Source of the DNA: a virus
Length of the DNA stretch: 22,232 nucleotides
Reading direction: 5' to 3' (one strand)
IMG/VR virus record: IMGVR_UViG_3300037502_000679
Location: 1 to 22,232 of that record
Numbering within the stretch: position 1 is the first letter of the stretch; each line of letters starts with the position of its first letter. This document shows positions 2,152 to 3,972 of the stretch, piece after piece. Made by a program: the position numbers and the translations under genes. Below the pieces are notes generated by a model, which saw only the letters and a program-made list of their open reading frames with translations, was not told the origin of the DNA and did not search any database.

Positions 2152-2853
2152 TCATGCGTAGAATATCTCATACATATCTGGCCTATTAGCCTTTAACCAC
2201 GCTTTAGGCTCCTCTAAACACTTCTCGTAGTCCATCCCTACCGTCTGACTACCTGCATGATGTACATACGCTGTACTTACAAAGTGCTTAAATCCCGCCC
2301 TTCTCATATCTAAGCAGATTATATTATCGGAAAACCAATTAATGCTAGGAAATTTAGCCGCGCCCCATGCTTCCTTTGTCACCACAGCGCATATCGGAGC
2401 TATAACGTCTACTTCCTTAATGTTTCCTTCGCTTAAGTATTTCAGGCCAGCTATCTTGTCTCCCTCTACCGGGAACCTAATATTCTGCTCACGCAATACG
2501 TAATCCGATCTGCATCCCAGCCATCCTAATTTATATTCTCTATCAACTGTCAGGAATTCATAGTCTTTCTTTAACTTTTGATAGGTATCAGGAGCAAATA
2601 CCACATCATCATTGCATACAATCAATGAATCATGTTTGAGAAACGCATAATCGATAATGTCATTATACGCATCCCCGAAATTGGAAGCAGTATTTGGTCG
2701 GAATATGATGTTTCCGTAATCTCTGATTCTTGCCCAGAGTGCCAGATTATTTCCGCTAAGGTATATAGGTATGTCTCTGGTATATTGTTTAAGTGACTCC
2801 AGAAGAACATAAACAGACGGACTATTTACCGTAGCTATTACGATTGCTTGCAA
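2152..2853 (-). CDS. Glycosyltransferase-like protein (GT-A fold)
   Basis: This protein has 233 residues. It starts at TTG (2853), chosen because a perfect AGGAGG stands 4 nt upstream and no ATG follows early. The N-terminal strand MQAIVIATVNSPSVYVLLES suits a nucleotide-sugar binding Rossmann-like start. VCNDDVVFAPDTYQKL (about 79-94) carries an NDDV that can serve as the metal-binding DXD motif. Later segments (VDVIAPICAVVTKEAWG, NWFSDNIICLDMRRAGFKH and a C-terminal YVHHAGSQT) fit the acceptor half of GT2-like enzymes, including the terminal His often bound to metal. Transferred sugar and acceptor are unknown: it may modify phage DNA, a virion protein or host surface glycan. It is preceded by the structured intergenic region at 2870-3041. 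Confidence 0.75.
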   Translation of the reverse strand: MQAIVIATVNSPSVYVLLESLKQYTRDIPIYLSGNNLALWARIRDYGNIIFRPNTASNFGDAYNDIIDYAFLKHDSLIVCNDDVVFAPDTYQKLKKDYEFLTVDREYKLGWLGCRSDYVLREQNIRFPVEGDKIAGLKYLSEGNIKEVDVIAPICAVVTKEAWGAAKFPSINWFSDNIICLDMRRAGFKHFVSTAYVHHAGSQTVGMDYEKCLEEPKAWLKANRPDMYEIFYA

Positions 2854-2869
2854 GAAACCTCCTATAAGT

Positions 2870-3041
2870 TGTTGGTGGCCGGTGCTGATCTCCGGCTTCC
2901 GCGATCCATAGTCGCCATCAAGCGTTCACGAACTACGGTTGCGCATCAGCCTGCGCATTCACCAACACGACTGAGGACTGCTGCCATCTCCTAGATACCG
3001 CCCCATACCCTGTCGATGCATTCCGGCGTGGCAGTCTTCAG
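2870..3041 (-). ncRNA. Candidate structured RNA / 5' leader element with kissing loops
   Basis: The 198-nt gap between two co-directional glycosyltransferase genes is visibly GC-richer than its surroundings and full of inverted repeats. Outer stem: TGTTGGTG (2870-2877) with CACCAACA (2960-2967). Inside it are hairpins GCCGG/CCGGC (2878-2882/2892-2896), GCGA/TCGC (2901-2904/2912-2915), GTT/AAC with CACG loop (2924-2933) and TGCGC/GCGCA (2940-2944/2953-2957). The loop at 2884-2889 (GCTGAT) is perfectly complementary to the loop at 2945-2950 (ATCAGC). A second long hairpin pairs 2971-2981 with 3031-3041. Read on the minus strand, the element ends 6 nt before the AGGAGG of the next gene, so a cis-regulatory leader is the simplest reading. 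A stable small RNA, or a packaging site near the terminase genes, is also possible. Only 18- and 20-codon ORFs lie inside. Confidence 0.55.
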
Positions 3042-3051
3042 GTTTCAATCC

Positions 3052-3972
3052 TCATGCGTCTTGATGCTGCTTATATTCCTCAAATGTCCTATTTAGAACG
3101 TCTTTGAAAGACTCGTTAAATGGTCTTGCCTTAGTCTTACCTTCCATCTGACGAGTAATACTTCCACCCATTAAATCAATGTAATATTGCAATAACGCAA
3201 AATACTTTTCCTCCGATACAAACTTCCTGTATTCCCGAATCAACCACAGCATAATTACCGGAAATACATAATCATAATCGCCTAACCATTCAGCAGTTCC
3301 CCAAAAATTAAATGTCTTAGGACTCTGGCTATATACTGCTTTTGTATCTTTAGTGAAACATTTTATCAGCGGTACATTATGCACCTGCCTAATTCTTGCA
3401 TCTGTCTCGTCATTCTTTATCGGCTTATCCCACCTACAAACATCCTGACGGAAACAATTAACCATTAACTCACCTAACAGCGTATCCGCTACATTAGGGT
3501 CAATAAGGTCAACAAACTTACACTCTACTATTCCCTCATATTTCCCTTTGATATTCCCCATTGGAACATCAGGAAACGCATCCCAGACTCTACCTGCATC
3601 ATCCGGGCTAAATGCCATTGTGTTGCAATAAATGTAATCTACATCGTAATTCGTTAGGACAAGTAGCTCACCTATTGAGCCGGGAATAAGGTAGTCATCA
3701 TCCCCAATAATCCAGACAAACTTAGACTTAAACGGCAGGTTATACGCATAAATAAAGTTAGCCGCAGCACCTAGATTCTCTGCGTTATGCCTAACCTCTA
3801 TCCATTTCTGAGCGTCAAGATATTCTTTAGTCCCATCTGTACTGCCGTTATTCGAGACAAATATCTTTACCCTGTCCTCATAGCCTTTTAAATCATATCT
3901 AATTGCTCTTAGACAATTCTTGAGCTTACTTAACCGATTGTAAGTCGGTATGTAGATTGTTAAATCTGTCAC
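3052..3972 (-). CDS. Family 2 glycosyltransferase
   Basis: This protein has 306 residues and a classical GT2 (GT-A fold) N-terminus. LTIYIPTYNR (4-13) is the first nucleotide-binding strand, FVSNNGSTDGTKEYL (38-52) the second, NAENLGAAANFIYAY (63-77) the third, and VWIIGDDDYLIPGSI (86-100) contains the DXD metal site (Asp 91-93). The enzyme should transfer a sugar from an NDP-sugar; acceptor unknown. It starts at GTG (3972), overlapping the stop of the upstream gene as GTGA, so it is translationally coupled. Together with the second glycosyltransferase it forms a pair between the early genes and the terminase. The C-terminal 150 residues are not diagnostic. Confidence 0.85.
   Translation of the reverse strand: MTDLTIYIPTYNRLSKLKNCLRAIRYDLKGYEDRVKIFVSNNGSTDGTKEYLDAQKWIEVRHNAENLGAAANFIYAYNLPFKSKFVWIIGDDDYLIPGSIGELLVLTNYDVDYIYCNTMAFSPDDAGRVWDAFPDVPMGNIKGKYEGIVECKFVDLIDPNVADTLLGELMVNCFRQDVCRWDKPIKNDETDARIRQVHNVPLIKCFTKDTKAVYSQSPKTFNFWGTAEWLGDYDYVFPVIMLWLIREYRKFVSEEKYFALLQYYIDLMGGSITRQMEGKTKARPFNESFKDVLNRTFEEYKQHQDA

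Follow-up and report, generated by a model that had tools for sequence, protein, structure and literature searches.

What is encoded in the 198-nt gap (2854-3051) that separates two minus-strand genes of IMG/VR virus record IMGVR_UViG_3300037502_000679? We examined this gap within the whole 22,232-nt stretch, here called the window, and among its relatives in other phage genomes. The initial annotation had described the gap as GC-richer than its surroundings and as lacking a good open reading frame (ORF). Both descriptions held, and the ORF list contained none of at least 60 aa. The sequence instead forms two consecutive domains, D1 and D2. Comparison with the relatives showed that a constant frame, made up of the D1 closing stem and of the outer stem, arms and loop-loop helix of D2, carries exchangeable hypervariable inserts. 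The RNA corresponds to the window's minus strand. The best explanation for the whole would be a two-domain structured RNA module that mimics tRNA in trans and possibly serves as a decoy, although we consider this account somewhat short of probable.

Structure and strand of the intergenic RNA

D2, the kissing-loop domain (2871-2966; like all parts of the element, on the minus strand), is closed by a 7-bp outer stem in which GTTGGTG (2966-2960) pairs with CACCAAC (2877-2871). The longer stem of the initial annotation (2870-2877/2960-2967) was present exactly as described. A short linker, AAT, leads from the outer stem to a 4-bp D-like arm (2941-2956, GCGC-AGGCTGAT-GCGC) with an 8-nt loop at 2952-2945. 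The hypervariable insert of 44 nt (2897-2940) folds as a single long bulged hairpin. It is followed by a 5-bp T-like arm (2878-2896, GCCGG-AGATCAGCA-CCGGC) with a 9-nt loop at 2891-2883, which abuts the outer stem. The minus-strand D2 therefore contains three arms rather than the four hairpins first proposed. The perfect complementarity noticed earlier between two of the loops was retained, GCUGAU on the D side (2945-2950) pairing with AUCAGC on the T side (2884-2889). The minus strand of D2 folded at -44.8 kcal/mol (z = -4.15), with 1 of 200 shuffles equally good, compared with -34.5 (z = -1.63) for the plus strand.

Exact-match scans bias sequence sets towards the boxes searched, so covariation was drawn only from sets anchored elsewhere. 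For D2, 45 distinct scaffolds were collected by anchors outside the loops. The proportion of paired cells, 97.1%, was inflated by the scaffold descriptor, which required the stems to be paired and the loops to share four pairs or more; it did not require two-sided changes. Such changes were found in 12 of 22 pairs, while the shuffle mean was 5.0 and none of 500 shuffles was as high. The signal was lost when the partners were slid. All four pairs of the D-like arm changed on both sides, as did three pairs of the T-like arm, two of the outer stem and three of the loop-loop helix (columns 17-19 with 45-47). The loop-loop changes rested on few sequences, AGACTGAT/ATCAGT in two and AGGTCGAT/TTCGAC in one. 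The last pair of this helix was open in 17 of the 45 scaffolds, and we therefore regard five pairs as its core. Given the z value of the minus-strand fold and the support from covariation, the structure of D2 is beyond chance. The initial annotation had suggested a tertiary-structured RNA, a suggestion to be given up if homologues did not covary; both the stems and the loop-loop helix were found to do so.

D1 (2973-3053) is defined by a closing stem of GAGGATT (3053-3047) with AGTCCTC (2979-2973), which encloses a variable insert (3046-2980). Its frame was recovered in 203 distinct domains with 33 distinct closing stems, and was 94% paired, compared with 80% with shuffled partners. The closing stem covaries. 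Alone, D1 was energetically unremarkable (z = -0.85); its support comes from sequence comparison. The linker between the domains, AGTCGT (2967-2972), can in part lengthen the D1 stem instead, and at the left end of many relatives CACG could extend this stem by pairing with CGTG. A second long hairpin proposed earlier (2971-2981/3031-3041) competes with the family-conserved closing pairing and is replaced by the D1 domain.

The strand, which the initial annotation had left undecided, is the minus strand, because G-U wobbles outnumbered A-C mismatches 74 to 4 over the pairs of D2 and D1 together, because D2 folded better in this orientation, and because both flanking genes run in this direction. 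Wobble bias and fold energy accordingly rejected the plus-strand reading. The single wobble once cited for the plus strand carries no weight, since it lies in the hairpin that competes with the conserved D1 pairing. As judged from aligned sequences, the two-sided changes in loops and stems and the wobble bias show selection on a folded RNA.

Exchangeable inserts and genomic distribution

The frame contrasted with what it enclosed. Among 89 elements, 79 inserts were distinct and fell into 69 dissimilar clusters, with lengths of 26-162 nt; 117 of 181 D1 interiors and 87 of 119 D2 interiors were non-redundant. Some inserts occurred on different outer stems, and one core was found in D1 at one locus (L222; L numbers are our handles for individual loci) and in D2 at another (L269). 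Relatives also re-pair D1 and D2 between loci. Even between the window and a near relative (L003), the match was limited to the arms. A search of 2.9 million viral contigs for exact 17-mers of the window inserts gave matches only outside any such frame, which were attributed to chance, and the idea that a window insert recurs elsewhere in a frame was rejected.

Around a variable middle, parts of the boxes GTTGGTGAATGCGCAGGCTGATGCGC and GCCGGAGATCAGCACCGGCCACCAAC recurred in about 200 phage records returned by a blastn search with the window query; many of these matches cover one box only. Pattern scans of viral contigs extended this to several hundred loci. The window-type module reads ACGCAT-GAGGATT, D1 insert, AGTCCTC-AGTC-GTGTTGGTG, D2 interior, CACCAAC-AAC, and the form in enterobacterial phages reads ACAGGTAA-GAGCATT, D1 insert, AGTGCTC-TTTCC-GTTGTGGTG, D2 interior, CACCACAAC. 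The units occurred singly or in tandem arrays, often beside phage tRNAs. In named phages, IME11 and an O157 prophage among them, they lay in stretches of DNA that encode no protein and measure up to 3.3 kb. They were near tRNAs in UPM2146 and HC6, near tRNA genes in CF57a, and among tRNA-Asn, -Thr and -Ile in a P1-like plasmid. In HK633 they followed the late promoter pR' and preceded the holin, on the strand that is transcribed. Among the matches listed for the exact D-arm box, bacterial contigs came almost entirely from Gamma- and Betaproteobacteria, and all four bacterial copies sampled adjoined phage primase, RecT or helicase genes. In all, the family is found in phages, prophages and phage-plasmids, and its range covers at least two proteobacterial classes.

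One relative, including its insert, was present in 959 of 5426 complete E. coli genomes, and 237 of its 1094 places were on plasmids. A megablast search with 331 bp of the mEp460 locus found 2727 E. coli genomes; we prefer the former count because the 331-bp query may match flanking prophage DNA. A family this common in phages and E. coli would explain long "empty" stretches of phage genomes. ORFs of at least 100 aa covered 41 of 103 elements, compared with 76% in the control, a measure too blunt for proof in GC-rich genomes. Simple scans for sigma-70 promoters and terminators near the element yielded nothing useful, and the CPS-53 prophage of E. coli K-12, looked at as a source of transcript data, does not carry it.

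Several loci (L284, L279, L278, L034 and L286) contained 1-3 kb without annotated proteins, seemingly filled with many different folded RNA modules in tandem, including D1/D2 units, short GAAAGA-loop hairpins and sometimes true tRNAs. A further module upstream of D1, TTTTCGTAAGCGACTTTGCGG..TTTAGAAACTGA..AAATGCAAACGATG, was common to unrelated phages (L284 2230-2300, L279 2255-2310, L278 1805-1865). One relative retained the right end alone (L011 430-465, CTAACAGGAGGTTACTTG), as if the remainder had been lost.

In the window, the gene upstream of the element (3052-3972, minus strand) matches PF00535, glycosyltransferase family 2. The downstream gene (2152-2853, minus strand, 233 aa, TTG start at 2853), which the initial annotation had called a glycosyltransferase, had no Pfam match. 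A left-end linker common to the relatives, CATCAAGACGCAT (3054-3066, minus strand), ends in the T that opens the TGA stop of the upstream gene (3054-3052, ..QDA*); the element thus provides its stop codon. In L003 a different upstream gene is terminated in the same manner. A Shine-Dalgarno sequence, AGGAGG (2858-2863, minus strand), lies shortly past D2. A small gene at 4571-4861 matches PF16786, a RecA-dependent nuclease.

Likeness to tRNA and possible function

D2 shares with tRNA (RF00005) an outer stem, a D-like arm and a T-like arm in the same order. Its 7-bp acceptor-like stem directly adjoins the 5-bp T stem, and its D arm has 4 bp. Outer stems longer than 7 bp occurred in some relatives (L045). 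In contrast to tRNA, the elbow of D2 is a Watson-Crick loop-loop helix instead of the usual contacts between D- and T-loops, and the frame contains neither an identified anticodon arm nor CCA. No 3' CCA followed the 7-bp outer stem (tail AACTTATAGG), and the loops of the window unit, AGATCAGCA and AGGCTGAT, are not a canonical T-loop (TTCRANY) with its matching D-loop.

Among 204 non-redundant inserts of the relatives, 13 contained a canonical T-arm in the sense orientation, compared with none on the reverse strand and at most one in each shuffled set. The similarity of sense-strand inserts to tRNAs lay mostly at T-arms, and in one insert 22 consecutive nt were identical to part of a tRNA D-arm region. 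An apparent enrichment of anticodon-arm-like hairpins was dropped because it was inseparable from the T-arms. Within arrays, GACGGGCTCATAACCCAATCC and its variants (10) resemble the anticodon arm of initiator tRNA (GGG-CTCATAA-CCC) and might mimic a VapC target (L037 ~3200-3300, L286 2725-2745, L278). The IME11 array holds an unannotated tRNA-like unit with a T-arm and a CCA-like end (L279 2690-2760, TTCCGGT..GCCGGAACCA).

Since the frame is selected as RNA, the core is exchanged, relatives often lie in phage tRNA arrays and some cores carry T-arms, tRNA mimics that act in trans and have diversified through conflict with the host would be the simplest reading. The transcript would be a stable, tRNA-shaped RNA. 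The kissing-loop elbow and the acceptor-like stem, which adjoins the T-like arm, would hold this shape, and the insert would stand where a tRNA has its anticodon and variable region. Such an RNA might engage host tRNA-binding proteins, and its most plausible role would be to decoy or inhibit anti-phage defences that cleave or sense tRNA; the exchange of inserts would then track changing host defences. Decoys are plausible because defences that cleave tRNAs can be countered by tRNAs of phage origin (PMC11555353, PMC10264068, PMC13096335). This role is suggested by sequence features and by analogy, and we propose it tentatively. About equally tentative is the notion of "variable-core" RNAs, a repertoire shared by proteobacterial phages in which a selected tRNA-like frame locked by kissing loops would present a near-endless choice of shuffled, folded inserts in arrays for RNA-based counter-defence. 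If true, this repertoire would be comparable in logic to variable protein scaffolds. We know of no described counterpart to a constant RNA frame whose folded inserts are hypervariable.

Several observations weigh against a tRNA mimic acting in trans. The Rfam tRNA model did not match the units, and ARAGORN made no tRNA call among them. T-arms were found in only about 6% of the inserts, and none in those of the window. Within a single junction, short arms may place a loop-loop helix of 6 bp under strain, in which case the loops could pair between molecules instead. Finally, 22 of 73 window-type units ended within 60 nt upstream of a ribosome-binding site and start codon, compared with 4.4% of random positions. 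For this last reason the main rival for the window is a leader or punctuation element acting in cis, which would insulate or stabilise the downstream mRNA between operon genes, would be cut by RNase P or RNase E-type enzymes or protect a 5' end, and whose insert would drift freely. In the window, the two genes around the unit run in one direction, AGGAGG and the start codon follow shortly after its end, and at 32 loci with relatives of the downstream gene the unit was present in some and missing in others. However, in several enterobacterial relatives the unit is part of a long protein-free array, in some cases with tRNAs, and does not stand at a gene start, and the inserts travel as intact cassettes, unlike drifting filler. 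We therefore consider a role in cis unlikely, though to be taken seriously.

The initial annotation had also named a small RNA, which the kissing-loop element may be. In a more specific form, the frame would be a scaffold for antisense or regulatory small RNAs that presents the insert for pairing with transcripts of the host or the phage. A programmable scaffold would be expected to combine an invariant frame with a changing insert, as is the case here, and the small RNAs of Pseudomonas phage PAK_P3 were first examined as base-pairing RNAs (PMC4933390). Yet the inserts are themselves folded, and the window unit was no more complementary to other parts of its contig than shuffles were, so antisense action on its own phage was rejected; we regard the scaffold as rather improbable. 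Similarly doubtful is a selfish modular repeat, a mobile hairpin that would spread from one intergenic site to another, recombine by way of its conserved arms and serve no function for the phage. The module was present, absent or doubled in tandem (L015/L016) before the same downstream gene, and the shuffling of D1 and D2 would fit such a repeat, but the two-sided changes and wobble bias argue for selection on the folded RNA and no mobility gene was noticed alongside. The complementary loops could also join molecules into rings or chains, as in the packaging RNA of phi29. In the T-like loop, two purines precede and one purine follows the six pairing bases, a layout known for dimerising kissing loops. 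In the window, the element is about 1 kb from a probable terminase gene (weak Pfam match), near which the initial annotation had placed a possible packaging role. For most of the relatives examined, however, no terminase is adjacent (an exception, L036, has one within 1 kb), which leaves the packaging role unsupported, and hypervariable inserts are ill-suited to a machine part. Multimerisation is very unlikely.

Comparison with known RNAs

No family of Rfam 15 matched the region at gathering thresholds, and relaxed thresholds added only one chance similarity, to a CRISPR repeat. The search itself works, since it detected a true C4 antisense RNA (RF01695) in the mEp460 locus (L037 475-562). C4, like the present element, is a structured phage RNA of Enterobacteria; both C4 and isrK were present elsewhere in L037, and the element itself was unmatched. 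A similarity to the CRISPR repeat RF01322 at GGATTGAAAC, overlapping the D1 stem, reached 20.8 bits against a gathering threshold of 45 and was taken as chance; the window record holds one copy of the unit and no direct repeats with spacers. The element almost certainly belongs to a large RNA family. This family matched no model of Rfam 15 and was not found in the open-access literature searched, although a description elsewhere is possible. A riboswitch controlling the glycosyltransferase, proposed at first, is unsupported because the hypervariable interior is unlike a ligand-binding aptamer and the frame also occurs beside unrelated genes and in protein-free arrays. GTTGGTG/CACCAAC recalls the core of integron attC sites, but the order of the attC core is the opposite, and the wobble bias points to RNA. 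The Pas small RNAs of E. coli prophages (PasA, 84 nt) were judged different on the strength of their published description.

GOLLD and ROOL are much larger than the D1/D2 unit, which also differs from them in matching no Rfam family. Their likeness to the unit is that they are structured noncoding RNAs, bacterial and phage-associated, with kissing loops (PMC12286853). The stable RNAs C and D of T4 (rnaC and rnaD), whose function has been unknown since the 1970s (PMC4933390), are 139 and 119 nt long and lie at the end of a tRNA cluster. For several relatives of the window unit, the genomic surroundings would be compatible with a stable RNA of this type. As in some inserts, a canonical T-arm, CCGGGTTCGAATCCCGG, is present in rnaC, alongside arms that are oversized and non-canonical. 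By eye, rnaC and rnaD have neither the D1/D2 frame nor a common sequence, and no such kissing-loop elbow. Two loops of rnaC could pair with each other (TTGACG/CGTCAA; L597 1409-1547, fold z = -4.6).

PAK_P3 expresses two small, abundant late RNAs, sRNA1 and sRNA2, of which sRNA2 lies between two phage tRNAs and contains a T-psi-C 11-mer (PMC4933390). By eye, the sRNA2 region resembles the present units in its acceptor-like ends (GCTGTGT..ACACAGC), its T-arm and its oversized interior. The PAK_P3 RNAs differ in lacking the constant D/T kissing-loop frame, and the likeness does not imply homology. Another unannotated tRNA-like stretch of this phage (L599 25820-25895) has the T-arm GCTCAGTTCGAATCTGAG and the ends GGGTAG../CTGCCC. 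By analogy, PAK_P3 sRNA2 and T4 RNA C would lend transcript support to a tRNA mimic acting in trans, and the family described here may in turn offer a starting point for understanding the stable RNAs of both phages, which are still unexplained.
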